A stretch of 58,144 nucleotides of DNA from positions 1 through 58,144 of the forward strand of contig CAJBBX010000092.1 in assembly GCA_903951425.1 (NCBI GenBank), written 5' to 3'. The stretch is from an uncultured Chthonomonas sp. (GTDB lineage: Bacteria; Armatimonadota; Chthonomonadetes; Chthonomonadales; CAJBBX01). Below, in pieces: positions 35,401-53,741 of the stretch (position 1 is its first letter; the number at the start of each line of letters is the position of its first letter). The notes under the pieces were generated by a model that worked only from the letters and a program-made list of their open reading frames with translations, did not search any database and was not told the DNA's origin. A program made the translations under genes and the position numbers.

Positions 35401-35678
35401 CCTACGTCCGCTCCGGCAAGCGCGGCACGGTCCACCCGCTGAAGGCCTACGTGCGAAGCCTGCCGGATTACGTGATCCAACCCGGCAAGAGCATCACATT
35501 CAAGGTGAACGGCTCCGTTATCGGCTCCGCCAACGTGGCCGCCGACGGCTGGGCCACGGTGAACTGGTCCATCCCGGCCGGCGAGCCCACGGGCGCCCAC
35601 ACGGCCTCCGCCGAGTTCGCGGGCGACGCCTGGTACGCCGCGGTGAGCGCGAGCACCACCTTCAACGTGGTGCCGTAG
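32442..35678 (+). CDS. Large secreted SBBP beta-propeller / Ig-like repeat protein
   Basis: 1078 residues. Signal peptide MRSISAIAAAAALAAAPTWA. Residues 25-245 form a beta-rich N domain found ahead of SBBP repeats (YGSLPLQFVQTGQ, PGIDLVYTGNQRQVEYDFVV). Residues about 246-690 hold seven SBBP repeats, each with a GxIGVGI/DxGNAYVTG-like turn and a tail such as NFPTNAGAVQ, NFPITAGAFD or QFPTSQGAFQ. Residues about 695-1078 hold four Ig-like repeats, each with a TLDGSSIGSATT-type strand and ending in FAGD. GGGAG lies about 10 bases before the ATG. SBBP proteins are surface or matrix proteins; binding partner unknown. It stands alone between two terminators. Confidence 0.9.
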   Translation: MRSISAIAAAAALAAAPTWALPGGTPTGKTRYGSLPLQFVQTGQPGSYLARGKGYGLAVSQRGAVLTLVRGDGKAGPKAVSFGMRTVGGNPDAVMTASGKLPGAVSSFVGDRSQWRVGMPAYATVRVGQVYPGIDLVYTGNQRQVEYDFVVAPGADPSRIRMAFEGLQGSSLDADGGLRMATRLGDLRKSRPTLYQVVGGKRVQVAGGFRPIPGRAGEYGFRVGSYDRSRRLVIDPVFEYSTFSGAGGADVGGGIAVNAAGEAYFTGNTASGGYPVTVGAFDVTYNLNTDAFVTKLNAAGSAQVYSAFLGGAGPDDGVGITLDDTGAAYVVGRTASPNFPTNAGAVQSVFAGGLTDGFITKVDPSGASLAFSTYLGGSGDDGCTAVAVSMNHAPYVTGYARSANFPITAGAFDTSWNGHYDAFVAVLTPNGGSLVGSTYLGGNAEDSGMGIGLIDNVPIISGYTESPQFPTSQGAFQTARLGPSDAFCARFTADLTGAQYITLVGGSGADIGAGMAINSKQEAAFTGYTESADFPVQAGSYQTTLKGVRDAIVVQVGSTGTTLMGSSYLGGDAADEGHAIVLDSQAYVVAGTTGSSNFPTTLGAAQPAFKGGSDAFVTRIWAPCTGVPYSTYVGGAQQDEGNGLAIDTTGAVYLSGTTISAGFPVTVGAFQTTIGGSSDAYVVKLRTFGLAVVTVLPALGKPGAASALQASLNRASDGAAIVGAILGYTLDGSSIGSATTTATGLASLSVLVTDAMAVGVHPIGVSFAGDADFGPTASNGVLTVSQAATALYVPDRTQIITLPVALKAWLKRTTDGGWLVGRSVAFAVDGTSVGSATTDAGGQAVLTWVVTGGPATRTIKAEFAGEVHYLASAGTATLTAQTVATKVYVVDRLNVKIKTYTVLKAYLYTLASAIIPGKSMTMEVDGTSLGSQVTNSGGYISFGYTVPEGVGAGNRVVKAIWAGDGGYLASSNTGKLGVVQGNLYVWPYVRSGKRGTVHPLKAYVRSLPDYVIQPGKSITFKVNGSVIGSANVAADGWATVNWSIPAGEPTGAHTASAEFAGDAWYAAVSASTTFNVVP
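33181..35675 (+). repeat. In-frame repeat array (7 SBBP + 4 Ig-like units)
   Basis: From 33181 to about 34500 the same ~65-codon unit recurs seven times, recognised by repeated TxFPxTxGAF and STYLGG(S/N)GxDxG segments. From about 34540 a second ~95-codon unit recurs four times with KAYL, VDGTSLGS and FAGDxxYL blocks. The units have diverged, so recombination between copies would mostly be suppressed. Confidence 0.8.
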
Positions 35679-38556: not shown

Positions 38557-39642
38557 CTACAGCGAGGTGACGCCGTAGACCGTCAGGACGCCCAAAATCT
38601 CGTCCGCATGAGCGTAGATATCATCGAGCCCAATGATGTCGTGCCACTGCTCAACCTTGTTGGCCCCAAACACCACCAGCTGCTTGCGGCGCTCCGTGAA
38701 CTTGAACCGGCAGATTGGCTTGCGGTTGCTATCGTCAAGGATCACCGAGCAGTAGCTGAGGGCATCACGCAGGCAAATGCGGCTCTGGTCAACTCGCTGC
38801 CTCAGGATCGCCTTGACGATGTAGAACGCCTCCCACTCCTCCGGCGTCGTAACAACATCCTTGCTGGACGGCGGCGGCACTTCCGCGGCTGGTGGATCGG
38901 TGTCGCTTCGCAAAGGCAGGTCAGATGTTTCGTCGGCCAGAGCCTGCTTCAGGCGGTCGCTGATGCGGTCGCTCACTAGTTGGTTTACAGCCCGACGCAC
39001 GATGTCCGTGAACTGGGCGAGCACCGCCTGCGTCTTGTTGCCGCTGTAGACGCGGGCGACCAAGAACCTGACAAACTCCTGTGAGGGCGCCTGAAACTCC
39101 TCATTCAGAATCCGGCGCACTTCTTTGGTGTACTTAAGCTCGCTGGCCGTCGCGAGGATCGTGTCCAGGTCGAAGGTCGACTTGGTGAACTTCCGGAGCT
39201 CGTCGACGAGGGGTTCGCGGATGTCAAGCAGGTTGAACTCGAGGAACGGCTTCTGGTCCATCTTGTTGGTCTCGTCCAGGTCGGTGAAGAACCGGTAGAG
39301 GAGGCCGTTGGTCAGGATCGCGAATCGCGCCTTGGTGACGGTGAAGTACCGGAACAGCTGCGAGGCGTGCTCAGTGTCCAGGTCTGCCCCAGACCACTTG
39401 CATTCAATGAGAATGGCCGGCGTCCCATCACGGAAGATGGCGTAGTCGACTTTCTCGCCCTTCTTCGTGCCGACATCAGTGGTGAACTCGGGCACGACCT
39501 CGGTCGGGTCAAAGACATCGTAGCCAAGGGCCGCCAGGAACGGCAGAACGAGCGCATGCTTGGTGGCTTCCTCTGTCTGGAGGTTCGGCAGCTGCCGCTG
39601 CGCAGTGGCGTTCAGAGCGCGTATCTTGTCGATGAAATCCAT
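38557..39642 (-). CDS. Orphan HsdR_N-type restriction-endonuclease-fold protein
   Basis: 361 residues. The N-terminal ~140 residues match the type I restriction HsdR N-terminal nuclease domain: QTEEATKHALVLPFLAALGYDVFDPTEVVPEF, then D66 in KVDYAIFRDG, E80 and K82 in ILIECKWSGAD, a PD-(D/E)xK set, followed by YFTVTKARFAILTNG. The rest (about 150-361) is helical then a small alpha/beta domain (KFTERRKQLVVFG). No helicase motor, HsdM or HsdS is nearby, so this is not a full type I system. GC content is visibly lower than the neighbours, with AT-ending codons, suggesting transfer. GGGGAA precedes the ATG by about 7 bases. Such orphan proteins occur in defence islands, but function here is unknown. 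Confidence 0.88.
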   Translation of the reverse strand: MDFIDKIRALNATAQRQLPNLQTEEATKHALVLPFLAALGYDVFDPTEVVPEFTTDVGTKKGEKVDYAIFRDGTPAILIECKWSGADLDTEHASQLFRYFTVTKARFAILTNGLLYRFFTDLDETNKMDQKPFLEFNLLDIREPLVDELRKFTKSTFDLDTILATASELKYTKEVRRILNEEFQAPSQEFVRFLVARVYSGNKTQAVLAQFTDIVRRAVNQLVSDRISDRLKQALADETSDLPLRSDTDPPAAEVPPPSSKDVVTTPEEWEAFYIVKAILRQRVDQSRICLRDALSYCSVILDDSNRKPICRFKFTERRKQLVVFGANKVEQWHDIIGLDDIYAHADEILGVLTVYGVTSL

Positions 39643-39811: not shown

Positions 39812-41788
39812 TCACTCAGCCTTCAGCACGAAGTCCCTTACCATGAGCCAGTTTGTGCCCTGGTCGGCGGTGGCGCGGATGCGGACCGCGCGGATTGGAC
39901 GGCCCTGCAGCGCGGCGCGGGCCACTCCGTCGTCGGCGATGGTCGCCACGGTATCGAAGGTCTGGCCGTCTTCGGAGACCTCCAGCACGCCGTGGTGCAT
40001 CCGCGCGATCTCCACGCCGGGGCGGCCGGTATGGACCTCGGCGAGGCGCAGCCGCGTGGGTTGCTGGAGCGTGACGGTGACAGTATCGCCGGTGCGGATG
40101 GGACGGTCGTTCCAGTAGTAGGTGGCCAGATTGCCGTCGAAGGCGAAGGCGGGGGTGTAGGTCGTCCAGACGCCGGAGCTGGAGCTAACCGCGGCGGGCA
40201 GCGGCGGCTTCGCGGCGGGCCACTCGGAGGGGCCGCCCTCAACGGTCTGGTACGGCACGCGCAGGGCGGTCAGACGGCGCTTCTGCACCGCGAGCCGCCG
40301 GCTGAAGTCGGGCCAGGCCTTGCGGGCGCGGGGCGTCCAGGTGGCTTCGGCCAGGGCCAGCAGCCGGGGATAGAGCTGGCGGTCCACCTCCGGCTCGGTG
40401 CGGGCGATGTGGGTCCACATGTTGGCCTGTGCGCCGAGAACCAGCCTGCCCTGCGCCGGCGTGAGTTCCTTCGGCACGGGCTCATAGGCGTAGGCCGTGC
40501 GGGTGGAGATGGCGTCGTAGCCGTAGTCGAAGTAGCAGTGGCTGGTGGGCGACATGACGACCGTGTGGCCCATGCGCGCGGCCGCCACGCCCCCGGCCAC
40601 GCCGCGCCAGGACATCACCGCCGCGCCGGGCGCCAGCCCGCCCTCCAGTATCTCGTCCCAGCCGATCATGCGCCGCCCGCGGGAGGCGATGAAGCGCCCG
40701 ATGCGCCGGACGAAGTAGCTCTGCAGCTCCTCCTCGCTTTTCAGGCCCTCGGTTCGCATGCGGGCCTGGCAGCGCAGGCAGGCCTTCCAGCGGTCCTTGG
40801 GGCACTCGTCGCCGCCGATGTGGATGAACTTCGATGGGAAGAGGCGGATCACCTCATCCAGCGCGTCCTCCATCACCGCGAAGGCGCGGTCATTGCCGGG
40901 GCAGAAGACATCGGTCTGGATGCCGGGACCGGTGAAGTAGGGGTAGACCTCGTACTTGCCGCCGGTGCAGGAGAGGTCGGGGTAGGCCACCAGCGCGGCA
41001 TTGCAGTGGCCAGGCATCTCCAGCTCGGGCACGAGGGTGACGTGCCGCCGCTCGGCGTAGCGCACCAGCGCCCGGATATCATCCTGCGTGTAGTAGCCCT
41101 GACGCTCGGCGGGCTCGTGGAACCTCTCCGCGAACCGGGCGCCCGCCCGCGTCAGCCTCGGGTGGCTCTTGATCTCCACGCGCCAGCCCTGGTCGTCCGT
41201 CAGGTGGAGGTGGAGGACGTTCATCTTGTAGCACGCCAGCCGGTCGATCGTCCGCTCGAGGTAGGCCCTGCGCCAGAAGGTGCGGCTGCAGTCGACCATG
41301 AGGCCGCGCCAGCCGAAGCTGGGACGGTCGACGATACGCACGGACTGCAGCGCGGATTGCGCGGGCGCGCCCTCCAGCATCTGCCCCAGCGTCTGCCCGG
41401 CGTAGAAGAAGCCCGCCGCTCCCCGCGCACGGATGACCACCCCGCCGGGGCCCGCCACGAGGGAGTAGCCCTCCGACCCGAGGTCGGCGAGCGCGCCCCG
41501 GGAGGTGAGCAGCACGGAGCCGGGCCGAGCCGAGCCGCCGCCGACGAGCCTCACAGAGGCCCGGGGCCGACCGGCCGCTCGGAGCGTCTGCGCCACGCCC
41601 TCGGCCTCGCCGCGAGCCGCCGCCGAGCCCCGGTCGACCAGCACGCGAACGTCGGCGCCCAGCCGGAAGCTCCCGGCGCGCGGCTCCAGCAGGGCGGGTC
41701 GGGGGACGATGGGCGGCTCCGAGGCGGCGGCGCGCAGGGCGCACGCGACGAGCAGGAGCGGCCAGGCGGAGCGGCTTGCGGCGATCAT
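39812..41788 (-). CDS. GH20 beta-N-acetylhexosaminidase with C-terminal F5/8-type domain
   Basis: 658 residues. Removes terminal beta-GlcNAc/GalNAc by substrate-assisted catalysis. Signal peptide MIAASRSAWPLLLVACALRAAA. An N-terminal GH20b-like domain spans about 25-150. The (beta/alpha)8 barrel follows with FGWRGLMVDCSRTFW, NVLHLHLTDDQGWRVEIKSHP and VPELEMPGHCNAAL. D327-E328 in IHIGGDECPKDRW are the catalytic pair, with MIGWDEIL and GAQANMWTH later. Residues about 540-658 form an F5/8-type (CBM32-like) sugar-binding domain (TYYWNDRPIRTGDTV, VEIARMHHGVLEVSEDG). The ATG overlaps the stop of UROD-like gene A (ATGA at 41785-41788). Last gene of the eight-gene unit. Confidence 0.96.
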   Translation of the reverse strand: MIAASRSAWPLLLVACALRAAASEPPIVPRPALLEPRAGSFRLGADVRVLVDRGSAAARGEAEGVAQTLRAAGRPRASVRLVGGGSARPGSVLLTSRGALADLGSEGYSLVAGPGGVVIRARGAAGFFYAGQTLGQMLEGAPAQSALQSVRIVDRPSFGWRGLMVDCSRTFWRRAYLERTIDRLACYKMNVLHLHLTDDQGWRVEIKSHPRLTRAGARFAERFHEPAERQGYYTQDDIRALVRYAERRHVTLVPELEMPGHCNAALVAYPDLSCTGGKYEVYPYFTGPGIQTDVFCPGNDRAFAVMEDALDEVIRLFPSKFIHIGGDECPKDRWKACLRCQARMRTEGLKSEEELQSYFVRRIGRFIASRGRRMIGWDEILEGGLAPGAAVMSWRGVAGGVAAARMGHTVVMSPTSHCYFDYGYDAISTRTAYAYEPVPKELTPAQGRLVLGAQANMWTHIARTEPEVDRQLYPRLLALAEATWTPRARKAWPDFSRRLAVQKRRLTALRVPYQTVEGGPSEWPAAKPPLPAAVSSSSGVWTTYTPAFAFDGNLATYYWNDRPIRTGDTVTVTLQQPTRLRLAEVHTGRPGVEIARMHHGVLEVSEDGQTFDTVATIADDGVARAALQGRPIRAVRIRATADQGTNWLMVRDFVLKAE

Positions 41789-42732
41789 AGGGCGGCGGCC
41801 TCCCGGTTCACTTCGTCCACGGCCTGCACGAACGCGGTCAGGTTCTCCGGCGGGGTGTCGGGCTCCACCGTGTGTGCCGGCGCGACGATGAGCCCCGTGC
41901 CCGGGCCGAAGAGGCCCGTGAGGCGGCGCACCGCCGCCCGAACGTCGTCGGCCGATCCGCGGGCCATATCGCTCTGGGCGCCGATGCCGCCCCAGAAGGC
42001 CAGCCGGTCGCCGTAGAGGCGCACCAAGCAGGCCACGTCGTTGCACTCGGGCTGGATGGGCTCCAGGATATCGATGCCCACGTCGATGAGGTGCGGGACC
42101 AACGGCTCGATGTGGCCGCAGCTGTGGTATGCGATGGCCGCGCCCGGCGACGCGGAGCGGACCGCGCCGACGATGCGCTCCAGCGGCGGACGGAAGAAGG
42201 CGTGCCATGCCTCCTCGCGCACCAGCAGTGAACGCTGGGAGCCCATGTCGTCGCCGATGAAGACGATGTCGACCCCGGCTCGGGCGTAACCCGCGGCGAT
42301 ACGGGCCTTGTTGACGGCGATACGCTCCAAGAAGCTCCGCGTCTCGGCTGGATCGGTCATCAGGTCGAGCAGCAGGCCCTCCAAGCCGCGCACCTCGTGG
42401 GCCTGCTCGAACGTGCCGCACTCGTAGGAGGAGACGGCGGCGAGGCCCTGGGCGCGGACCAGGTCGGCCTGCCGCGCCACTCCTTCGAAGTCGAACAGGC
42501 GGTCGAACTCGGCCTGGCTGATCTCGGCGGCGAAGTCGAACTCCGCCGGGCGGCCGCCGGGCAGCCACTTCAGGTCGAGGCCGAAGAGCGCGTCGAGGTC
42601 GTCCTGGCCGGACGTCCGCATGAAGTGCTCCGCCAGCGCCGGGCAGGGACGCAGATGGCGCGGGAAGGGCGAAGGCCCCTGCCGCCGAGCCGCCCGAAGG
42701 ACCCGCTCGCGTCCCGTATACGTCGCGCTCAT
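41785..42732 (-). CDS. UROD-like protein A (MtaA/CmuA-type, not HemE)
   Basis: 315 residues, cytoplasmic. The UROD-fold is clear: ERVLRAARRQGP at the start, GVDIVFIGDDMGSQRSLL, H203-S-C205-G in AIAYHSCGHIEPLVPHLIDVG, DILEPIQPECND, then GDRLAFWGGIGAQ and VAPAHTVEPDTPPENL. True HemE has an RQAGRYLPEY arginine motif near the start; here it is absent, so uroporphyrinogen is unlikely to be the substrate. HSC corresponds to the HxC zinc motif of MtaA/CmuA methyltransferases. The usual third ligand Cys is replaced in the APAH segment by His. AAGGAGG precedes the ATG. Spacing to gene B is 20 bases; its stop overlaps the GH20 start. Confidence 0.85.
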   Translation of the reverse strand: MSATYTGRERVLRAARRQGPSPFPRHLRPCPALAEHFMRTSGQDDLDALFGLDLKWLPGGRPAEFDFAAEISQAEFDRLFDFEGVARQADLVRAQGLAAVSSYECGTFEQAHEVRGLEGLLLDLMTDPAETRSFLERIAVNKARIAAGYARAGVDIVFIGDDMGSQRSLLVREEAWHAFFRPPLERIVGAVRSASPGAAIAYHSCGHIEPLVPHLIDVGIDILEPIQPECNDVACLVRLYGDRLAFWGGIGAQSDMARGSADDVRAAVRRLTGLFGPGTGLIVAPAHTVEPDTPPENLTAFVQAVDEVNREAAAL

Positions 42733-42752
42733 GTCGCCTCCTTGGCCGGGCC

Positions 42753-43808
42753 CTAGCCGGCCACCTTCATCCCCTCGTCCAGCATGGTCAGGTAGTTCGC
42801 TACGGGCATGTAGTCGGTCAGCGAGTTGCCGGTGCCCAGAGCCCAATAGCCGTCGGCATAGCACTGCTCGATCTTGGAGCGGGTGGCGGCGCGGATCTCG
42901 GCCTCGGCGCCGCGACAGATGAGGTCGACGTCGAGCCCGCCCAGGGGCGTACAGCGGGCGCCGTACTGCCGCTTGAAGTCCTCAACGGGCATGATGGCCT
43001 CCTCGAAGGAGTGCTTGGCGTCGATGCCGCAGTCTTCGATCAGGTCATCATACACCGTGGCCAGGTTGCCGCAGGAGTGGAGTACGAAGGGCTTGCCGCG
43101 CTGGTGCGCCTCGTTGACGATGGCCTTGTAGATCGGGAAGACGTGGCGGCGCAGGTCGGCGGGCTTGAGGAAGGTGGCGGTCTTGAAGCCCAGGTCGTCG
43201 CCCTGGCGCGTGGCCACGACGTCCGGCATGGAGGCGATGCGCCGGTGCGCCGCCTGGTAGAGGCCTCCGAGTTTGCCGAAGACGAGGCCCACCAACTCCG
43301 GGTCGTCGAAGAGGGCCAGCGAGAGCCCCACAACGCCCATTAGAACAGTGGCCCACTCGTAGGGGCCGCCGCCGACGCCTCCCACGATCTTGACGCCGTC
43401 GGGCAGCAGCTTGGCCACGGTCTCGAAGTGGCGGTAGTCAATGTAGCCGTCGGCCTCGGGCCAAGGGTAGCGCTCGAACTCGTCCAGAGTGCGGATGCAG
43501 GCGTGGGCCTCGCTCTCGCGGCTGACGGAGCCTGAAGTGGAGTGTGCCGGCGGGAGCCACATGTTAGGACCCACCTCCAGCGGCACCACGTCGAAGCCCA
43601 TGTCGAGCCAGAAGTCGACGTACTTGGGCCAGAACGCGGGGTTGGCCAGTCCGCCGTCGGCGAAGTCGTGCCCGGTGCGCTGCTTGAAGAAGCCCATGCT
43701 GTAACCGTGCTCATAGAAGGGCAGGTGCGTGGGCCGCCCCTCGCGGCGCAGGACCTTGAGGAACTGGGTGTAGTCGGGCCGACGGCGGCGCAGGTTGGTC
43801 ATGGTCAT
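42753..43808 (-). CDS. UROD-like protein B (MtaA/CmuA-type, not HemE)
   Basis: 351 residues, no signal peptide. Starts MTMTNLRRRRPDYTQFLKVLRREG. It has LEVGPNMWLPPAHSTSGS, GGVGGGPYEW, then RQGDDLGFKTATFLKPADL, H244-S-C246-G in FVLHSCGNLATVYDDLIEDCG, and ARCTPLGGLDVDLICRG followed by GYWALGTGNSLTDYMP. The last segment has Asn where methyltransferases have the third zinc-ligand Cys. HemE arginines are absent. The ATG overlaps the stop of the secreted protein gene upstream (ATGA at 43805-43808). Substrate unknown; see the shared analysis of the three paralogues in the findings. Confidence 0.83.
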   Translation of the reverse strand: MTMTNLRRRRPDYTQFLKVLRREGRPTHLPFYEHGYSMGFFKQRTGHDFADGGLANPAFWPKYVDFWLDMGFDVVPLEVGPNMWLPPAHSTSGSVSRESEAHACIRTLDEFERYPWPEADGYIDYRHFETVAKLLPDGVKIVGGVGGGPYEWATVLMGVVGLSLALFDDPELVGLVFGKLGGLYQAAHRRIASMPDVVATRQGDDLGFKTATFLKPADLRRHVFPIYKAIVNEAHQRGKPFVLHSCGNLATVYDDLIEDCGIDAKHSFEEAIMPVEDFKRQYGARCTPLGGLDVDLICRGAEAEIRAATRSKIEQCYADGYWALGTGNSLTDYMPVANYLTMLDEGMKVAG

Positions 43809-46060
43809 CGTTTGCCTCTCTTCGGGGATGTCGCGGGAGCCGGCGCGGGCTTGGCGGGAGCCGGGCGGCCGGCGACGGCGTTCAGCTCTTCCTGCCAAAC
43901 GGCGTACCAGAAGGGCCCGCCGGCGCCGTAGATCTCCTGGCCGATCTGCCCCAGCTTGGAGTTGGCCTGGAACCACTCCATGTCTGTGCCCCAGCCGCCG
44001 TGGAAGTCCTCCAGCGGCACCATCTGGTCCGGCGCGACGCGGCCGCAGTCGCTCTCGGAGCCGTCGGCCGGGGCCATGTACTTGCCGGCCCCGGCGGCCG
44101 CGATGGTGGGCGGCAGGGCGAACCAGCTCTGGGTGGGGCCGCGCTGCCAGCAGTCGTCGAGCATGCGGCGGACGTCGGGGGCCAGCCGGGCGGACCCCAG
44201 GGCGACGTAGTCCTTCATGAACCGGCGCACCTGGTGGCTCTCGTACTCGCAGGAGTGCGGGTTGGAGGGGGTGCCGCTGAAGCCCCAGAAGGTGGTCAGG
44301 CTCTTGCCGATGCCGTAGTATCCCTGCCAGAGCCACGCCCATCGGAGCGTGTTGGCCAGCGGGATGTAGGCCAGGTCGCGGTAGCGGGCCTCACCGGCGG
44401 CCTCGGCGAGCCAGGCGCAGGCAGGGGCGCCGATGGCGGTCTGGTTGACCTCCCAGCAGAGGTCCATGCGCCGCCTGGCCAGCGCGTCGGCCGCGCCCCG
44501 AGCCGCGGCCAGGACCTCGGCGTCGGATCCGCCGCTCAGCTGGTGTAGACGCATCATGATGTGCAGGTACATGCAGGTGGTGTCGAACTGATAGAGCACC
44601 TTCTGGGTGCGGAGGTCGCTGGTGGAGACGTCGGCGAAGACGTAGCCGCAGTTGCGGCCCAGCTCCAGCAGCTTGGGACGGTAGCCGAGAAGCATGCGCC
44701 GGGCGTCGGCGTTGCCCGCGGCGGCGATGTCGGCCACCATGTAGACCGGGTTGAGCAGGTAAACGCCGGTGTAGTGCAGGTCCTGCGTGGGCGGCAGGTT
44801 GTTGGTGAAGCCCTGCCACTTCTCGTCCCAGAAGGCGGGTAGCGAGCGGGCCAGGTCGTCGCGCAGAGAGGCGGCCTCCTTCTGCGCTGGGTGCTTGCGG
44901 CAGTACTCTATGAGGGGTAGCAGGAGTTGCGATACGGTCCAGAGCTGGATGTCCTTGTGCTCATAGCCCACGTAGGCGCGGGGCCACCAGAGGCCGTTAG
45001 TGGTGTGCGTGTTCTCAGGCCGCCGCAGGTCTTTCACGAGTTGAGGGGCCACCCGGCCCGCCCAGTCGACGGCCACCAGCGGCGGCTTGGCCAGCCTGCG
45101 GTAGATGGGCGCGAGCATCTCGACGAAGGCCTTGCAGACGGCCACGTTGTCGTCGGGCAGGGCAGGCCGGAGCGCGAGGTAGGTGTCAGCGATGGTCAGC
45201 CGCTCGCCCTTCGGGATGCGGAAGCCCTCGGGCCGCAGGTAGCCGAAGCGCTCGTGGACCTCGACCTTCTCGGCGTAGGGAGCCGGCGGTTGCTGCTTGC
45301 CGCCCACCTCGGCGGGCTGGAACTCGCTGACGGCCGGGCCCATGCGCACAGCGCCCCGCTGCTCGCCGTCGGTGTAGCCCAGCCACGGGTTGGCCGCGCC
45401 GGTCAGCTCGTAGAGCCGGCTGAGCGACGTGAACTCCTCAAAGTAGAGCGCCTCGGTGGCCATCTCCAGGTCGCGGAAGTAGGCGATGCCCGAAGCCGGG
45501 CCGCGCTGCGACATATGCCGCACCACCTGGTGCCCGCCCCAGCCGCCCTTCACGCGGAACTCGCAGTCGGGCAGCGGCGGCTCGTAGACGGCCTTGTCCT
45601 GCCGCGCAGTGACCTTTACGGTCCAGCGCACGAGGCCGGGCGTCGCCTTGTAGGCCAGGAGCGTCCCCTCAAAGTCTGCCCAGGTGCGGCGCGACCGAAT
45701 GACCGCCACCACGGCGTCGGGCGTCTCCTTGCAGTCAAGCGAGCGGAAGGTGCTGAAGTCCTTCTTCGGCGTCTTGTGCTCGTAGCCGATGAAGGTGCCG
45801 TAGTCCGTGACGTTGAAACTGGGGCCGTGGGCCATGCGCGTGAAGATGGCCGCGTCGGGCATCGAGCGCCGCGTGATGCTGATGCCCGCGCCCAGCTTGC
45901 GCCCAGCCTCGGGGCCGTACTCAAGCCGGTACTCGCCGGTATCGATGGTGAAGGTGCGTGCGCCGGAGGCCGTCAAACGGACGTCGCCGGGCTGGGCCAC
46001 CGCCGCGCCGCCCAGGCAGGCCGCCAGCGCCGCCGTCATCATTGCCGACCAGGTCCTCAT
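43805..46060 (-). CDS. Secreted protein with probable alpha/alpha-toroid domain, unknown function
   Basis: 751 residues. Signal peptide MRTWSAMMTAALAACLGGAAVA. Residues 25-310 are beta-rich (ASGARTFTIDTGEYRLEYG, SLSRLYELTGAANPWLGY). Residues about 330-690 are helical with repeated W/Y-rich turns such as LWWPRAYVGYEHKDIQLW, LPPTQDLHYTGVYLLNPV, AIGAPACAWLAEAAGEARY and WAWLWQGYYGIGKSL, as in six-hairpin glycosidases and related lyases. The last 25 residues are a Pro/Ala/Lys-rich tail. I cannot name the family; a glycosidase or polysaccharide lyase is the best guess. Both ends overlap neighbours (ATGA upstream and downstream), so it is an integral member of the eight-gene unit. Confidence 0.75.
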   Translation of the reverse strand: MRTWSAMMTAALAACLGGAAVAQPGDVRLTASGARTFTIDTGEYRLEYGPEAGRKLGAGISITRRSMPDAAIFTRMAHGPSFNVTDYGTFIGYEHKTPKKDFSTFRSLDCKETPDAVVAVIRSRRTWADFEGTLLAYKATPGLVRWTVKVTARQDKAVYEPPLPDCEFRVKGGWGGHQVVRHMSQRGPASGIAYFRDLEMATEALYFEEFTSLSRLYELTGAANPWLGYTDGEQRGAVRMGPAVSEFQPAEVGGKQQPPAPYAEKVEVHERFGYLRPEGFRIPKGERLTIADTYLALRPALPDDNVAVCKAFVEMLAPIYRRLAKPPLVAVDWAGRVAPQLVKDLRRPENTHTTNGLWWPRAYVGYEHKDIQLWTVSQLLLPLIEYCRKHPAQKEAASLRDDLARSLPAFWDEKWQGFTNNLPPTQDLHYTGVYLLNPVYMVADIAAAGNADARRMLLGYRPKLLELGRNCGYVFADVSTSDLRTQKVLYQFDTTCMYLHIMMRLHQLSGGSDAEVLAAARGAADALARRRMDLCWEVNQTAIGAPACAWLAEAAGEARYRDLAYIPLANTLRWAWLWQGYYGIGKSLTTFWGFSGTPSNPHSCEYESHQVRRFMKDYVALGSARLAPDVRRMLDDCWQRGPTQSWFALPPTIAAAGAGKYMAPADGSESDCGRVAPDQMVPLEDFHGGWGTDMEWFQANSKLGQIGQEIYGAGGPFWYAVWQEELNAVAGRPAPAKPAPAPATSPKRGKR

Positions 46061-48288
46061 CGCTTCACCTCCGTTGGGTCTGCCAGGAACTCGATATCGC
46101 CGAAGACCGCCGCGCTGCCTGCCGGGCCAGTCACGCCGAGCTGTAGCATCCAGGGCTGTCCCGGCCTGGCGCGGACGCGACGGTCCAGCGGGACCTCAGC
46201 GACCGTAGGCGACGCAGCTCCGCCGAAGAACCAGTTGTCGTTCAAGCCGAAGCCGTCCAGGTCGCCGTAGAGCTTGAAGATCCACTCCACGCCCGTCCCG
46301 GAGAGCGACCGGATCGGCACGCGAACCCGCGTAGCGCCCGGCGGCACGAAGACGGCCGGCAGCGCCGCAACGGCCCAGGTCTTCCCCGGAGCGACGGCCA
46401 CGCGGAGCCCCGCGGACGTGCGCTCGACCCGAGCCTCGTTCAGCCGCTCGCTCCACCGCCCGGCATCGAGCATCAGCCCCGGCGACCAGGCGAGCGGCGC
46501 GGGCCGAGGCGCCGGCGGCGGCCCGGCAGATTGCGCCACCTGGCCGGCGAGGTGGAAGAAGGTGCCGCAGTCGACGATCTCGAACCGGGACGGGTCCAGC
46601 GCGGCGGCCAGCCTGGCGATCTCGCCCACCAGGTTGGCCTCGACCCCGTAGACATTGGCGAAGGCCGGTAGCGGCCCGGCGCGGTAGAGGCCCTCGAGGT
46701 GTTCGACGAACCGGGGCACGTCGATGCGGTACTCCTTCTGCAGGCCGGGGCGCGTCTGCCAGTACCAGAGCGCGATGGAGTAGCGCACCACGGGCACGCG
46801 CCGGCTACCTACGGCGAACAACTCGCCGCCGGGCCGCGCCTCATGCGGGGTGATGTCCATGCCCCGCAGGTTGGGCAGCAGCCGGGCGTAGTCGTCAAGC
46901 GCCGAGCGCGTGGGGTACCAGAGCCCCACCTCGCGGATGCCCATGGCCGGCATCGCCCGGGCCGTGTGGCGCAGGAAGGCGTCGAGATTCGGGTTGGCCG
47001 ATGGGCTCAGGTACCCTCCGCCGTTGGGGGCGCCCACGAAGGTATCGAGTGGCGTCCGCGTGGACTGGAAGTACTCGAAGACGGCGGGCCAGAGCGCCAC
47101 GCTGGCCGGGTTCACCGCCCAGTTGATGGCGACCTTCCCCCGCCCCGGATGGTAGGCCCAGGCGCGATTGTACATGAGGGTCTGCGACTTGATGGCGTCG
47201 CCCTCGTTGGCCACGAAGGCCAGGTACACCTTGCGCTCGGGCCGCTGGACGGTCGGCTTGCCGGGCTGCGTGTAGGGCGGACGCTTGAGCGGCTTCATGG
47301 CGGCATGGAAGGAGAGGTCGCAGGCGGCAGCCGTGCAGTTCACGTAGTGGCCGGCCGCCGAGACGCGCTCCACATAGACCGGCTCGGGCTCTGCCCAACC
47401 GAAGATAGGCGCCGGCGTTGTGGTCAGGCAGCCGAGAACGCGGTCGAGGATGCCGGCCATCTCGGCGTCGCCGTCGATGACCGACTCGCTATAGCGTGTC
47501 GGCGCCCGGATCGGCGAGAGGTTGAAGATAGGGCAGCGCCGGTAGAAGGCGTAGTCCAGTCCGTGCATGAAGCTCCAGTCGTCGCGCTGGCGCAGGTCAG
47601 CAAAGCCGGCGCAGAGGCTGTGGGCGGCCGTCCGGTCCATGCGCGGGTAGGCCTCGCGCAGGAGCCAGTCGTAGATGCGCCGCCGGTCCCAGCCCAGCCG
47701 CTCGACCCGCGCCACCACAGATAGGCCGCCTAGCGCCTCCCGGTGCTCCTCGTAGAGCCTGCGGCTGATGGGCAGGCACCGGTTGAGGCTGGCCAGGTTC
47801 AGCGCCAGCACGATGTTGTCCGACGGCATCGCTCCGCAATCCCAGTCGTAGACCACCAGTCCGTTCAGTGCGGGCGCCACCCGGCGCAGTAGCGCATCGG
47901 TCCCGCCGGTCAGCCGCGTAAAGGCCAGCCCCCGCGTCTTAGAGTAGTAGCTCCGCCATTCGAGCTCAGCCGACAGGTTGCTCTCCGGCCCTCCCATGAA
48001 GTCGACCATATCGAGCCACAGGAGCGGCCCGTCGCGGTTGACCAGCCCCGCGGCGGCGAGCTTCAGCACGTATTCGTCGAACCGGTGGCCCGTCGGCGCG
48101 TACGATGACACCGACGAGAAGGGGACGAGCCAGACCTCGCGCGGGCCGAGGCCGAGCATCTTCCGCGTCACGGTCCGCTTGGGCAGGCGGTAGTCGGCCC
48201 GGATGTCCGCGGCCGAGGCTACGCCCGCCGCTGTGGCTGCCGCAACAACGGCCAGCCAGGCGAACGCCGCCGCGCGACGGATCAGCAT
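46057..48288 (-). CDS. GxGYxYP family putative glycoside hydrolase, secreted
   Basis: 743 residues. Signal peptide MLIRRAAAFAWLAVVAAATAAGVASA. The N-terminal region (about 60-230) has LKLAAAGLVNRDGPLLWLD and LNGLVVYDWDCGAMPSDNIV with LASLNRCLPISRRL, a pattern shared by GxGYxYP N-terminal domains. The catalytic-type domain carries FVGAPNGGGYLSPSANPN, corresponding to the name-giving motif, and MGIREVGLWYPTRS. The last ~150 residues are a beta-sandwich (APGKTWAVAALPAVFVPPG). The ATG lies inside the last codons of UROD-like gene C, a 7-base overlap. Substrates of this family are unestablished. The gene belongs to the same coupled chain. Confidence 0.82.
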   Translation of the reverse strand: MLIRRAAAFAWLAVVAAATAAGVASAADIRADYRLPKRTVTRKMLGLGPREVWLVPFSSVSSYAPTGHRFDEYVLKLAAAGLVNRDGPLLWLDMVDFMGGPESNLSAELEWRSYYSKTRGLAFTRLTGGTDALLRRVAPALNGLVVYDWDCGAMPSDNIVLALNLASLNRCLPISRRLYEEHREALGGLSVVARVERLGWDRRRIYDWLLREAYPRMDRTAAHSLCAGFADLRQRDDWSFMHGLDYAFYRRCPIFNLSPIRAPTRYSESVIDGDAEMAGILDRVLGCLTTTPAPIFGWAEPEPVYVERVSAAGHYVNCTAAACDLSFHAAMKPLKRPPYTQPGKPTVQRPERKVYLAFVANEGDAIKSQTLMYNRAWAYHPGRGKVAINWAVNPASVALWPAVFEYFQSTRTPLDTFVGAPNGGGYLSPSANPNLDAFLRHTARAMPAMGIREVGLWYPTRSALDDYARLLPNLRGMDITPHEARPGGELFAVGSRRVPVVRYSIALWYWQTRPGLQKEYRIDVPRFVEHLEGLYRAGPLPAFANVYGVEANLVGEIARLAAALDPSRFEIVDCGTFFHLAGQVAQSAGPPPAPRPAPLAWSPGLMLDAGRWSERLNEARVERTSAGLRVAVAPGKTWAVAALPAVFVPPGATRVRVPIRSLSGTGVEWIFKLYGDLDGFGLNDNWFFGGAASPTVAEVPLDRRVRARPGQPWMLQLGVTGPAGSAAVFGDIEFLADPTEVKR

Positions 48289-49505
48289 GGCTCGCCTGCC
48301 GTCCTGTACATCGCGATTACCTTCTCCGGCGCCACTTCGGCCAGCAGGTTGTGGATGTTGTTGAAGACGTACCCGCCGTCGCCGCCCAGACAGGCGCAAA
48401 CCTGCCGGACTTCTTGCTCGACCTCCTCGACGGTCCCGGATGGGAGCGTATGCTGCGTGTCTACGCCGCCTCCCCAGAACGACGCGCGGCCCCGGACCTT
48501 CTCCTTCCAGGCCTCATAGCCGTGCCCGCCCGCCGGCCACTGGGCTGGGTTGATGATGTCGAAGCCGCTCTCCACCAGCATCTCCAGCAGGCCGTAGATC
48601 GCGCCGCAGGAGTGGAGGAAGGTCTTGAGGCCGGGAGCAAGGCGGTGGACCTCGGCGTTGTGGCGGCGGTAGTAGGGCAGGAACAGCTCGCGGAAGGTGG
48701 CAGGCGAGGCGATGAGCGAGCTCTGGGTGCCCCAGTCATCGCCGCAGGTGAGCGCGATGTCGACGTACGGTGCGATCTCGGGGACCAGCTTGCGGGCCTC
48801 GCCAGCCATGTGCTCGATGGTGATGCCGTGCAGTTCGTGGACGTAGTCGGGTTCCAGGAGGCAGACGACCGGGAAGACGCCCAGGCCGCCGTGCGCCGTG
48901 ATGGCGATGCGGGCGTTGAGATGGTCGGCGTAGAAGAGGGCCCGGTCCGTCGTCTCGCGCGCACGGCGGCAGAGATCGACGGCCACCTGAACCTGTTCGT
49001 CGGTCAGCGCCCAGGCCTCCAGGTCGCGCTTGTACTGCTTGAGGTCCAGCAGTGGCAGGGGCTGGTCCATACCCAGCACGGGCTGGCCATTGTGCTCCGA
49101 GTTGAAGACGAAGGAGGATGCGGGCATCTGGATGTTCCACTGCCGCTGCCAGACCGTGCCGTCGGCGTCGGTGGAGAAGGTCTCCGGATGCTGCACCCGG
49201 GCCGGGAGGCGGCCACCGAAGTCGGTGTCGTGCCACTTCTCGGGCTCCTCAAAGGCGTTGGTGACGCCGCCATCGATGGTCACCACGTCGCAGCCCAGGG
49301 CATCCAGCACGTCCAGGTCGGGCAGGGCCAACATCTGGTGCGTGTCATGCACCCTCGGACGCCGATAGGGCAGGCCCAGCGCCGCCACCAGCTTCGGGTA
49401 GGCGAAGGCGCTGATGCCCGTGGAGCGCATGGCGCCCAGGTCGCGGGGTAGCCTGTCGGGAGTCTGGAAGCTCAGTGCGCGCAGGACGCGTTCTCGTGAT
49501 GTCAT
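48282..49505 (-). CDS. UROD-like protein C (MtaA/CmuA-type, not HemE)
   Basis: 407 residues, longest of the three. Starts MTSRERVLRALSFQTPDRLPRDLG, a common opening of UROD-like methyltransferase relatives. It has YVDIALTCGDDWGTQSSLIASPATFRELFLP, H298-S-C300-G in KTFLHSCGAIYGLLEMLVESG, DIINPAQWPAGGHG and SFWGGGVDTQHTLPSGT, ending YVFNNIHNLLAEVAPEKV. The final ligand position again lacks Cys. HemE arginines are absent. GGAGGTTGG lies before the ATG. The start overlaps the stop of the six-hairpin glycosidase by ATGA (49502-49505). Confidence 0.86.
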   Translation of the reverse strand: MTSRERVLRALSFQTPDRLPRDLGAMRSTGISAFAYPKLVAALGLPYRRPRVHDTHQMLALPDLDVLDALGCDVVTIDGGVTNAFEEPEKWHDTDFGGRLPARVQHPETFSTDADGTVWQRQWNIQMPASSFVFNSEHNGQPVLGMDQPLPLLDLKQYKRDLEAWALTDEQVQVAVDLCRRARETTDRALFYADHLNARIAITAHGGLGVFPVVCLLEPDYVHELHGITIEHMAGEARKLVPEIAPYVDIALTCGDDWGTQSSLIASPATFRELFLPYYRRHNAEVHRLAPGLKTFLHSCGAIYGLLEMLVESGFDIINPAQWPAGGHGYEAWKEKVRGRASFWGGGVDTQHTLPSGTVEEVEQEVRQVCACLGGDGGYVFNNIHNLLAEVAPEKVIAMYRTAGEPC

Positions 49506-51973
49506 GGCCGTCCAACCTCCGCCGCCGTGATCAGCGCCTCGCCGCCGGGCTTCAGCTTGCGTACCAGCCGGCCTCGCTGCCACTCCACGACCACCTTGTC
49601 GCGGTAGGCGGTGACCTTGAGCCTGCGGCCGCGGAAGACCAGGCCGTCGACTCCTGCGAACTGCAGGCCCCTTGGCAGCCGCGGCCGCACACGGAGGCCG
49701 CGCAGGTCGGCGTCGATGCCGACGAAGGCGTAGAGGAAGGCTACCGGCGTGATACCGCTCTCGGGGAACTCGCCCCAGACGCCCACGGAGCCGGGAGGGC
49801 CGCCATGGTTGTTGATCTCGCCTCGGTAGAGCGGATTGCCGCCCACGAGATGGTCGGGCTCGGCGAAGCGGCCCAGGATCTTGCCGAAGCGGGCCCAGGC
49901 GTCGTCGGCGCCGGGCCAGAGCACCCTCGCCATGATCTCGTAGTAGGCCGTCCAGAGGATGGCGCCGCCGTCCTCGCACCACTCCTCGTACTTGTACCGG
50001 TTGTACTGCTCGGCGCAGTGGCTCGTGTTGGAGCGCGGGGCAAAGATCCAGCGGGTGAAGGTGTCTGGCCTGCCGCTTGCGGTAGGCTCCAGCGTCATCC
50101 ACCGCATCATGCGCTGGACCTGCGGCTTCGTGGCCAGTCCGTGGGCGGCGGCGATGAGGTTCACGTGCGTCATCCCCGGGTCGTGCTTGCCGCCCTTGGC
50201 GTCGATCCAACCGATATAGCGCCCGGCCTTGTCGTCCCAGAAGGCGGAGTTGAACTGCTCCCGGGCGCGGTCGGCCAGCCGCACCAGTTCGGGGGCACGG
50301 ACGGGGTCGCCGGCGGCCCGCTCCAGGTCGGCAGCGGCCCGCAGCGTCGGCGCGTAGAAGGCATTGATGTAGGCCACCCGGTGCCCCGCCGGGATGCAGT
50401 CCCAGTAGTCGCTGGGCCAGGGGACGATGCCGCCGATCTCGACACCGGCGTGCTGCTTGCTGTCGATGGTGAGGAGGCCCGTGTCGCCGTGCAGGGCGTT
50501 GAGCAGGTAGCCCGTGGCCTTGCGCACCGTGGGCAGACAGTTGGCCAGGAAGGCGCGGTCGCCGGTCCAGCAGTACCAGCGGTGGCAGGCCAGGATCCAC
50601 TGCGTGTTGCCGTCGTAGTGGCGGCTGTCGAAGGTAGCGCAGTCGCCTCCGTCCCACCCACGGGAGTCGCCGCGGCTCCAGATGAAGCCGTCCGGGTCGA
50701 TGCGGAAGGTGTAGTGGAGCAGCACGCGCTCCAGCGAGTCGTGGATGGGGCCGCCCACCCAAGCCAGCTTCAGTGTATCGAACTCATAAGTGGAGGGGCA
50801 CGAGGTATGGCTGGTCAGGTAGGTGAGCAGGAACTCGTTCAGCAACGCGTCGCGGGAGGGGTTCGACGTGAAGAAGCGCGGGAAGTGGAGCGGTAGGGCG
50901 GCGCCCGACGGCCTGGCCTCCAGGCTGCCACCCGAGCCGAGCAGGAGGCTGAGCCGATCGGCGTCCATGCGCGGCTGGAGGGCGCCGCGCCCGTGGGTCA
51001 GCGTCAGGTCGCAACCGTTGGCGCCCTGCAGGCGGGCCTCGGCGCAGGCGGGCTCCAGCGACCAGTCTGCCTCCAGCCGCTTGAATGCGTGGACCGGCAG
51101 CCAGTAGCCCGTGTCGGTGACAATGGATCGGAACGGCGTGGTCGCCGGGTTCGAGGTGTCGTAGCCGTCTCGGCGCCACGGGAACTCCAGGGCCAGGGCC
51201 GGGGCGGCAGAGGCCGATGCCGCAGGCGGCGACCCGATGGTCACCACGAGCCTGCGCCCTTCGGGCCGGACGGTCCAATCGGAGACGGTCACCTGCGCCA
51301 TGGCGAAGCCGAGCCGCCAGTCCCTGCCTGGCTGGGCCACACCGTTGACGTAGGCCTGGCCGCCGGCGAGCTGATCCGTGTTGCAGCCCCACCAGTAGGC
51401 GCCGCCATGCTTTGCGCCGATCTCCAGGTAGAAGACGCCCGGTTCGGCCGGTTCCGTCAGCGGCAGGTGGACTTCGGTGTCGTTGGGCAACGGCCGCACG
51501 CGTCGAGTGGCCACCACTGGACCCGCGGGGCCGTCGCGGCGGACCGTCATGGTGACCGCCGAGTCTGCCACGCCGCTGCAGGTGAGGAGCGCCCAGACAT
51601 CGGAGAGCCAGGGGCCGCCCGCCGGGACCGTGAAGCTCTGGCCCAGCGTGCCCGTGGGCGGCAGGTCCTCGCCGTGGTCGAAGGGCCCGCCGTAGCCGCC
51701 GCGCGCCACGTTGGGCACAAAGGCGCGCCCGCCGGTGATGCGCAATGCGCCGCCCTCCACCCGCACGTCGGCGGGAACTGATTGGCGGAAGGGCCGCAAG
51801 ACGGCGCCGCGCGGCAGGTAGCGCCCCTTGCCCGTGGGGTCGAACTCCACGCGGATACACCCGTCGCCGGGCCGCAGGCGGTAGGTCCCGTTGGCCACGA
51901 CAGCGGCGGGATCTGGAGCGCCGACCGCGGCTGCGGCCAGCGTTGCCAGCGCGGCCAGGCAGCTAAGGAGCAT
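49502..51973 (-). CDS. Secreted six-hairpin (MGH1/GH78-like) glycosidase
   Basis: 823 residues. Signal peptide MLLSCLAALATLAAAAVGA. The first ~430 residues are beta-sandwich accessory domains (AYWWGCNTDQLAGGQAYV, FPWRRDGYDTSNP). Residues about 440-740 form an alpha/alpha barrel typical of trehalase, GH63 and rhamnosidase-like enzymes: HDSLERVLLHYTFRIDPDGF, WDGGDCATFDSRHYDGNTQW, CHRWYCWTGDRAFL, VEIGGIVPWPSDYWDC and AYINAFYAPTLRAAADLERA. The end is a small beta domain (LRVRPRLPRGLQFAGVDGL). Family number is uncertain. The start lies inside the end of the GH130-like gene (11-base overlap). Confidence 0.83.
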   Translation of the reverse strand: MLLSCLAALATLAAAAVGAPDPAAVVANGTYRLRPGDGCIRVEFDPTGKGRYLPRGAVLRPFRQSVPADVRVEGGALRITGGRAFVPNVARGGYGGPFDHGEDLPPTGTLGQSFTVPAGGPWLSDVWALLTCSGVADSAVTMTVRRDGPAGPVVATRRVRPLPNDTEVHLPLTEPAEPGVFYLEIGAKHGGAYWWGCNTDQLAGGQAYVNGVAQPGRDWRLGFAMAQVTVSDWTVRPEGRRLVVTIGSPPAASASAAPALALEFPWRRDGYDTSNPATTPFRSIVTDTGYWLPVHAFKRLEADWSLEPACAEARLQGANGCDLTLTHGRGALQPRMDADRLSLLLGSGGSLEARPSGAALPLHFPRFFTSNPSRDALLNEFLLTYLTSHTSCPSTYEFDTLKLAWVGGPIHDSLERVLLHYTFRIDPDGFIWSRGDSRGWDGGDCATFDSRHYDGNTQWILACHRWYCWTGDRAFLANCLPTVRKATGYLLNALHGDTGLLTIDSKQHAGVEIGGIVPWPSDYWDCIPAGHRVAYINAFYAPTLRAAADLERAAGDPVRAPELVRLADRAREQFNSAFWDDKAGRYIGWIDAKGGKHDPGMTHVNLIAAAHGLATKPQVQRMMRWMTLEPTASGRPDTFTRWIFAPRSNTSHCAEQYNRYKYEEWCEDGGAILWTAYYEIMARVLWPGADDAWARFGKILGRFAEPDHLVGGNPLYRGEINNHGGPPGSVGVWGEFPESGITPVAFLYAFVGIDADLRGLRVRPRLPRGLQFAGVDGLVFRGRRLKVTAYRDKVVVEWQRGRLVRKLKPGGEALITAAEVGRP

Positions 51974-53741
51974 CTTCGAGGCCGCTCTCGATGCGGAGAT
52001 GGCGGGCCATGTCCTGCCCCATGGGGCGCCGCTCAAGGATGCGCCGCACCTCGTCTCGCACTTGCGCCGGCACACACTCCGACAGCGGACCCGCAGGGGG
52101 CTCGGGAGCCGTGCCCGCCGACCAGCCGGCCGTCTGCGTAGTGGCGCCGATCGGCTCGTCGGAGCGGTAAAGGATGCGCTCGGGGCACTCCAGGTCCAGC
52201 GCCATGACGCCAAGGGAAGCGACCGTGATGGGCCCGGCGGGGCCGTTCTCCCAGCGCACACCCCGGAAGGGTAGCAGCCAGCCGAGGCCCTCTACACGCT
52301 CAGGCGCCTGACCGTCGTAGAAGATGCCGTCGGCATCGAAGAAGCCAGGGCGCCCGGTGACGGGCCGCCGGATCTCCCGTTCGCCCAACCGCCTCACGAC
52401 GGCCAGTTGCCGTGCGGGACCATCGCCCTCGATTGCCCACTCCCAGCCGCACAGCGGCTCGGGCAGGGCCACCGTCGAGCAGGGCTCACACTCCAGCCGG
52501 ATAGGCCGCCGGGCGCGCCGAGCCTCGATGTCGGCCAGCACGTGTGGCGGCACGACATCGCGGAGGCGGAACGAGGCGCGTGCCACGGCGGTGTCGCCCA
52601 CGCCGGTGTAGAAGTGGAAGAGGTCATCGGGGCCGATCTTGCCGGCCTCCGCCTCCACCTGGCCGCCGGCGAACATGACGCCGTCCAGATGCGCCAGGTC
52701 GCGGACCCACTCGCCCTCCTCCACGAACTCGCGCCAGGTCTCGTCGGCCATAAGCAACGGCTCGGACGACCAGTAGAGGCACTCGCCCGTGTCGGCATCC
52801 ACCAGGCGCAGGTAGGGCAGGTAGAAGAGCCGCCAGCCGCTTCCGTCCTCATCGCACAGGGTGCGGTTGTGGACCCCGTGGACGACATCCACGAAGAGCG
52901 GTTGCGAACCCACGCCGGCGCGGATGGGCGTACCGTTGCAGCCGATATGCGAGTTGTCGAAGCGGCCCGGCCGGATGCTGCTCTGCACGACGCCGAAGTC
53001 GGCGATCCCGGCCTCGCTGGAGGGGCAGTGAGTCCGGCCCCTGGTGTCCACGATCGCCACATCGGGCACCGGACGGTGGAACATGCGCAATGACCCGTCG
53101 GTGAGGCGGATGAAGACGATATCGTTCTTGTTCGCCCACGAGGAGTAGATGCGGTTCGTGCCGCCCACGCCCGCGGGCTCCCAGACGCCCGGCGCCCACC
53201 AAAGCGCACGCCACTCATCCATGATCTCCTCGACCGGCGACGCGGTCAGCTCGATGCTGCGGTCCACGCGGGCCAAGAAGTCGGCGGCGGGCATCCGCAC
53301 GATGCAGTCGAAGACCTGGGTGACGGAGCCCTCGTGATAAATCATGTAAAGCCACGGGCCGTCCTCCCAGAAGCGGAAGTCGTGCAGCACGAGGATCTGG
53401 TCGCGGTGCGGCCCCTGCTGGTGCGCATCGAACTCCTCTTTGTCCTGCGGGAGCCAGACGGACCGCTCGATGGCGAAGATGGGTAGCGGCAGGCGGTGCG
53501 TGACCTGCTCGCCACGGGCGTCCAGTACCGCCAGGCCCAGGTGGCTCGCCCAGACGTCGTGGACATCGACGCGGAAGTAGTCGGCCGTGCCGCCGGCCCT
53601 ATAGCCCAGGAAGACCCGAGGGTCGAGGCTCAGGCGCATACAGCAGGGATTGGTGGCGTGATGCCCCTCCCAGCCGGCAGTGGGACCGGTTACGAGCGGC
53701 TGGATCAGGATCTCGGCGTGCTTGACGGCTCTCAAACTCAT
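51963..53741 (-). CDS. GH130-like five-bladed propeller enzyme (beta-mannoside phosphorylase/hydrolase-type)
   Basis: 592 residues, no signal peptide, so cytosolic. GH130 signatures follow in order: GHHATNPCCMRLSLDPRVFLGYRAG, D121 in ILVLHDFRFWEDGPWLYMIYH as the likely catalytic Asp, SSWANKNDIVF, GCNGTPIRAGVGSQPLFVDVVHGV (the IGxGxPP/YHG segment) and the C-terminal VMFAGGQVEAEA, DDLFHFYTGVGDTAVARASF. The final ~130 residues are an added domain. GH130 members phosphorylyse or hydrolyse beta-mannosides, including Man-beta-1,4-GlcNAc of N-glycan cores. Substrate here is inferred only. First gene of the unit; GGGAGC lies about 8 bases before the ATG, and a 12-bp palindrome sits 24 bases upstream. 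Confidence 0.8.
   Translation of the reverse strand: MSLRAVKHAEILIQPLVTGPTAGWEGHHATNPCCMRLSLDPRVFLGYRAGGTADYFRVDVHDVWASHLGLAVLDARGEQVTHRLPLPIFAIERSVWLPQDKEEFDAHQQGPHRDQILVLHDFRFWEDGPWLYMIYHEGSVTQVFDCIVRMPAADFLARVDRSIELTASPVEEIMDEWRALWWAPGVWEPAGVGGTNRIYSSWANKNDIVFIRLTDGSLRMFHRPVPDVAIVDTRGRTHCPSSEAGIADFGVVQSSIRPGRFDNSHIGCNGTPIRAGVGSQPLFVDVVHGVHNRTLCDEDGSGWRLFYLPYLRLVDADTGECLYWSSEPLLMADETWREFVEEGEWVRDLAHLDGVMFAGGQVEAEAGKIGPDDLFHFYTGVGDTAVARASFRLRDVVPPHVLADIEARRARRPIRLECEPCSTVALPEPLCGWEWAIEGDGPARQLAVVRRLGEREIRRPVTGRPGFFDADGIFYDGQAPERVEGLGWLLPFRGVRWENGPAGPITVASLGVMALDLECPERILYRSDEPIGATTQTAGWSAGTAPEPPAGPLSECVPAQVRDEVRRILERRPMGQDMARHLRIESGLEDAP

Follow-up and report, generated by a model that had tools for sequence, protein, structure and literature searches.

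A glycosidase operon with three UROD-like genes and the recurrence of its core in other metagenome-assembled genomes

Corrinoid methyltransferases of the UroD superfamily include OdmB and the Mlps, and characterized S-methyltransferases carry a His-Cys-Cys triad at the metal site (PMC10418091). Here we describe an operon in which three UROD-like genes are set among glycosidase genes, eight genes that very probably constitute a functional glycan-catabolic unit. It fills positions 39812-53741, on the minus strand, of the window, by which we mean the whole 58,144-bp contig (C92, 69.5% GC) from the 6.08-Mb genome (G000) of a lake bacterium. In marine Bacteroidetes loci a cytochrome P450 demethylates 6-O-methyl-D-galactose. 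The operon might serve the same end, taking a methyl cap off algal sugars, but no P450 occurs among the genes identified here and its chemistry would rely on a metal or corrinoid, not on oxidation.

Several other described systems resemble the operon in part. With MtaA/CmuA-type methylcobamide:thiol methyltransferases (TIGR01463; 4ay7), OdmB and Mlps, its UROD-like proteins share a superfamily, the H-x-C motif of the zinc site and weak TIGR01463 scores for all three; they differ from the MtaA/CmuA type in falling far under family cut-offs, in a third ligand that is His or Asn rather than Cys, and in being encoded among glycosidases in an operon with neither a corrinoid protein gene nor RACo. 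As in UroD-superfamily corrinoid systems, the activator RACo is present in the genome; the cognate corrinoid protein is missing from the cluster. HemE belongs to the same Pfam URO-D fold family, but the operon proteins lack its RQAGR arginines and a true HemE is encoded separately. GH130-centered mannan or mannoside loci also combine a GH130-type gene with secreted glycosidases, and sister clusters of the operon add an ABC sugar transporter and LacI; in contrast to such loci, the GH130-like protein g39 is strongly divergent, two or three UROD-like genes are present, and g35 represents a possible new partner family. The open-access literature that we searched held no description of UROD proteins in connection with GH130, polysaccharide utilization, Armatimonadota or sugar demethylation. 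To this extent the system is undescribed, as had been proposed in a preliminary description of the locus made from the sequence alone.

Gene products of the operon

In the direction of transcription the eight open reading frames follow the order g39-g38-g37-g36-g35-g34-g33-g32, with successive junctions of -11, -4, -7, -4, -4, +20 and -4 bases, each -4 being an ATGA overlap. The architecture first reported (eight minus-strand genes over nearly 14 kb, with ATGA at four junctions, 7- and 11-base overlaps at two and a 20-base gap at one) was exact to the base.

Its assignment of GH20, GxGYxYP and GH130-like proteins also held, the last in divergent form. The g32 product (39812-41788, 658 aa) is GH20 beta-N-acetylhexosaminidase-like with an F5/8 domain (PF00728, E = 1.6e-105, 354 bits; PF02838; PF00754) and contains the Asp-Glu pair of the family in its catalytic HIGGDE motif at residue 323. 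The g36 protein (46057-48288, 743 aa) matches the GxGYxYP family (PF14323, E = 6.5e-25), and that of g38 (49502-51973, 823 aa) resembles (alpha/alpha)-type glycosidases through GH116/GH65/MGH1-like Pfam matches at ~4e-4, under the cut-off. No Pfam match was obtained for g39 (51963-53741, 592 aa), including none to GH130 (PF04041) at E 0.01. Comparison of alignments by hhalign pairs it with GH130s (E = 1.2e-6, probability 91%, 244 columns), with HDFR opposite the EDPR region, and NCBIfam GH130 matches are weak; as its structure model is poor (pLDDT 45), the assignment depends on profile comparison.

The g35 product (43805-46060, 751 aa) matched no family in Pfam or NCBIfam, and a sequence search against the PDB returned nothing useful. 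In its structure model (pLDDT 74, pTM 0.83) the N-terminal part is rich in beta structure and precedes an (alpha/alpha)6 barrel whose nearest fold match is GH76 (Z 23, root-mean-square deviation 4.0 over 323 residues, 10% identity), without a sequence-family match. The (alpha/alpha)6 fold is also found in glucuronyl hydrolases and epimerases. Because a GH76-like barrel is one among many (alpha/alpha) families, we assign no activity to g35. The unit as a whole makes g35 a candidate for a new glycosidase family with a link to GH130.

By a simple hydrophobicity test, signal-peptide-like N-termini are found on g32, g35, g36 and g38, and on g30 (35904-38474, minus strand), a GtaA six-hairpin protein (PF16335, 1e-133) that is a probable downstream companion of the operon. 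The UROD-like g33, g34 and g37 lack them, and on g39 none is evident. This pattern predicts polymer-cutting enzymes outside the cell, and GH130-like and UROD-like proteins inside.

Conservation of the operon and its core

A relative, 'Armatimonadetes bacterium LacPavin_0920_WC57' (G001), has all eight genes collinear, with 93.6% DNA identity over the region, and g30 directly after g32 (~80 bp). Order kept at this identity argues that the layout is real and maintained. The eight genes are retained in 3/3 genomes of the genus (G000, G001 and G002), in G002 at two loci with breakpoints at gene boundaries. One of these holds g39-g38-g36-g33-g32 at 86-93% protein identity, three other orthologue pairs of the two genomes being 90-93% identical; the other holds g37-g35-g34 at 71-80% protein identity and adjoins a UROD gene whose G000 counterpart belongs to a GH106-like/GH43-like/GH2/UROD operon. 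Our first reading of G002, that two modules had merged in G000, was rejected when the start of G002 g36 proved to retain ~30 nt that resemble the g37 start (22/30 matches; among 1467 ATG sites none scored higher, and the runner-up reached 17). This scar points to a combined order that preceded the split and to a deletion of g37 in G002, where a diverged g37-g35-g34 copy looks to sit elsewhere. The scar concerns g37 only; none marks a deletion of g35-g34 from that spot.

Across GTDB genomes, a search with g35 gave 42 loci, 7 close (40-95% identity) and 35 distant. The MAGs (metagenome-assembled genomes) of the close loci are named Armatimonadetes, Chthonomonas (two), Sumerlaeota, Planctomycetaceae, Anaerolineales and Hydrogenedentes, which makes five phyla, labels that rest on MAG bins in which short contigs may be misplaced; Lac Pavin or La Plata sample names are attached to 5/7. 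One to three UROD-like genes lie near g35 in 7/7 close loci, versus 0/35 distant loci, three of which are in Armatimonadota MAGs and several of which end at contig edges. Given genome-wide URO-D counts of 15-64, the Poisson chance of such neighbors is 0.024 to 1.7e-4 at each of five loci; L114, whose g35 gene is split over two frames, is not one of them. As g35 differs by 44-62% among three of the non-armatimonad loci, these come from different organisms.

Relatives of g37 (55-80%) were found in L102, L103, L106 and L114, relatives of g34 (32-77%) in L103, L104, L105, L106 and L114, and g39 orthologues in L103 (55%) and L114 (47%); a clear GH130 gene is present in L103, L105 and L114. A large protein of no family, with distant profile likeness to g35, is common to L103, L104, L105, L114 and one UROD locus of G000, and some sister clusters carry LacI regulators, ABC sugar-transport genes and a sugar-isomerase-like gene. 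Beyond the genus, no orthologue of the GH20 gene or of g38 turned up next to g35. These comparisons reduce the conserved core to g34/g35/g37, often accompanied by g39 or a GH130 gene, and the GH20, GxGYxYP and g38 genes are mostly genus-level company. The preliminary description had suggested a search for conserved clusters of GH130 or GH20 with UROD-like genes: the g35/UROD core does recur, at several loci with GH130-type genes, but the eight genes are not conserved together, and this core had escaped notice.

GH130 genes also lie close to distant g35 relatives, without UROD genes, in archaea, TA06, Eremiobacterota, Calditrichota and a Flavobacterium (L107, L108, L111, L112, L122, L124, L129 and L136). 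The g35 family is therefore linked with GH130 over a wider range than with UROD, and may be a new GH130 partner family.

UROD-like proteins, RACo and corrinoid genes

The products of g33 (41785-42732, 315 aa), g34 (42753-43808, 351 aa) and g37 (48282-49505, 407 aa) match PF01208 with E-values of 1.7e-21, 9.3e-14 and 7.2e-15, respectively. Against the HemE family TIGR01464 (cut-off 303 bits) g33 scores 18.4 bits and g34 and g37 give no match, and the RQAGR arginine columns hold E/H/R, Q/R/H and A/A/L in an alignment that is weak there; the true HemE, at C142, scores 447 bits. Scores against MtaA/CmuA TIGR01463 (cut-off 235 bits) are 48, 24 and 37 bits for g33, g34 and g37, and the best solved relative of g33 is the methylcobalamin:coenzyme M methyltransferase 4ay7 (E = 4e-7). 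In alignment the metal-site triad is Phe-Thr-His in HemE and His-Cys-Cys in the RACo-linked MtaA-like protein of the genome. It is His-Cys-His in g33, His-Cys-His in g37 and invariantly so in its relatives across the phyla examined, and His-Cys-Asn in g34 and most of its relatives. The three proteins are thus not HemE, as first described, and keep two of three known ligands, from which we infer metal binding. They resemble methyltransferase-type proteins with a metal site and belong to an expansion that runs through the genome, features that the preliminary description had missed.

This expansion comprises ~60 URO-D family members in G000, including the one true HemE and one MtaA-like gene adjoining RACo, and first-look counts reach 130 in other genomes. 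Among 291 Armatimonadota genomes, scored for at least three UROD genes and for RACo, 151 had both, 136 neither and 2 + 2 were discordant; the Fisher values for this table take no account of shared ancestry. The phylum-wide UROD counts are lower bounds, capped at about six scored matches per genome, and only the three-or-more split was used. The coincidence is seen within one genus too, and RACo is encoded in G000 and in 6/6 other examined genomes with close g35 relatives.

The nearest dedicated corrinoid protein gene is at C63, from where its product could function in trans. It lies in a locus (L057, G000:C63:3500-23400) with a GH2 gene carrying a mannosidase-Ig domain, the corrinoid protein, two URODs, homocysteine S-methyltransferase, DUF1638, a methyltransferase, a further UROD and Gfo/Idh/MocA. 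Its gene content predicts that L057, next to a glycosidase gene, serves corrinoid methyl transfer, and one UROD of this locus shares 41.6% identity with a UROD from the Anaerolineales g35 cluster. A B12-binding protein near that cluster (L159:2792-3868, G294:C251) was considered as corrinoid carrier and rejected as a phycobilisome-like fusion. It joins a phycobilisome-like domain to B12-binding_2 and B12-binding, adjoins histidine kinase and PadR/GyrI-like genes, and is an odd candidate B12 sensor.

Proposed function and alternatives

In the mechanism that we propose, secreted g32, g35, g36 and g38, perhaps with g30, would shorten a glycan outside the cell, probably a mannoside-containing polymer. 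The pieces would be imported, and GH130-like g39 would finish breakdown in the cytoplasm. The three UROD-like proteins, through a bound metal, would remove a methyl or similar alkyl cap from the sugar and transfer it to an acceptor, either a corrinoid or a thiol; the corrinoid protein and RACo would be those encoded elsewhere in the genome. The glycan unit is argued for by the order kept in G001, the g37 scar, the 7/7 versus 0/35 distribution of UROD genes, the GH130 genes near the g35 family, the LacI, ABC sugar-transport and isomerase-like neighbors and the predicted division between outside and inside. A glycan utilization unit with a small-molecule branch had been put forward in the preliminary description, and the kept order, the scar and the cross-phylum core with ABC and LacI genes bear this out. 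The corrinoid part is argued for by H-x-C without the HemE arginines, the likeness of g33 to 4ay7, the tracking of RACo with UROD expansion and the L057 locus. The unit is well supported, its chemistry is deduced, and the methyl-transfer step is least certain: corrinoid-linked methyl or alkyl transfer is a tentative assignment that falls somewhat short of even chances, and some other metal-dependent step deserves nearly as much credence.

Several observations weigh against the proposal. The MtaA/CmuA zinc ligands are His-x-Cys...Cys, whereas the third position is His in g33 and g37 and Asn in g34. G000 has four B12-binding_2 matches, one of them in a MetH-sized frame, against ~60 URODs, and neither the operon nor any sister cluster read has a corrinoid protein gene. 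The RACo/UROD correlation is uncorrected for phylogeny, and RACo may serve only its MtaA-like neighbor. Within G000, 1/4 GH130 stretches fetched has a UROD-like gene, so GH130 and UROD genes are not linked as a rule in this genome.

Alternatively, in a genuine glycan operon, the URODs may be corrinoid-independent metallo-TIM-barrels acting directly on sugar or aglycone, whether as lyase, epimerase or decarboxylase or by direct alkyl transfer in the manner of MetE or the epoxyalkane:coenzyme M transferase. We hold this to be a serious possibility, with roughly one chance in three: URODs far outnumber corrinoid proteins, the His-Cys-His and His-Cys-Asn triads differ from the His-Cys-Cys of thiol methyltransferases, and UROD genes occur in several glycosidase settings without corrinoid genes. 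One such setting is L067 (G000:C8:1-15000), an operon of similar style with GH106-like, GH43-like and GH2 genes followed by a UROD-like gene. The near-perfect co-occurrence of UROD expansion and RACo, even inside one genus, speaks against corrinoid independence. A regulatory or non-catalytic role, with the URODs as ligand-binding TIM barrels for sensing a product of the breakdown, is improbable. It would accommodate the wide variation of site residues among UROD paralogues, some of which have no ligand-like triad, but the g37 triad is invariant across phyla and the g34 type nearly so, no DNA-binding domain was matched in these proteins, and sister clusters have separate LacI regulators. A chance neighborhood of unrelated same-strand genes, of which scattered homologues had been named as the mark, is very improbable: the eight genes do lie at two loci in G002, and the GH20 gene and g38 lack orthologues beside g35 outside the genus, but the genus keeps all eight in every genome, the scar points to an older combined order, the core is kept in MAGs of five phyla against the Poisson chances given above, and a single contaminating organism is contradicted by g35 identities of just 38-56% between cross-phylum loci.

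Recurrence of the core of the unit in five phyla suggests a so far undescribed route for consuming sugars that bear chemical caps, perhaps methyl groups. A broader and rather unlikely extension is that it typifies a new class of polysaccharide utilization, in which expanded UROD-like metalloproteins, drawing on a shared corrinoid/RACo pool, would strip O-methyl or other alkyl caps and thereby let GH130-type enzymes complete the breakdown; the large UROD-like families in Armatimonadota and the other lake phyla would in that case form a sugar-decapping library. Operon mates of all UROD genes are mixed (99 Pfam families over 74 mates), and a sugar-operon setting is therefore not claimed for every UROD. 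In several phyla single genomes hold dozens of unexplained UROD-like genes, which are annotated after heme synthesis. The unit links two defined UROD types to glycan breakdown physically and across phyla, and the RACo correlation supplies a concrete cofactor hypothesis; together they bring the role of this large orphan superfamily within reach of experiments on three or four purified proteins.

Upstream of the operon lie a thymidine kinase gene, at 81 bp, and an acyl-CoA ligase gene. A simple sigma-70 and terminator scan of the region, which is 69% GC, found sites no more frequent than in shuffled sequence. Downstream of g32, and before g30, is an HSDR_N (restriction-nuclease-like) gene (38557-39642). 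Its counterpart in G002 (L154:1996-3087, 93% identical) stands between g33 and g32, and G001 has none between g32 and g30; with three different arrangements in three genomes, this gene shifts place around the operon. The large protein encoded at 32550-35678 combines DUF7948 with SBBP beta-propeller repeats and Ig-like domains, and its relatives are common in the UROD loci fetched from G000.

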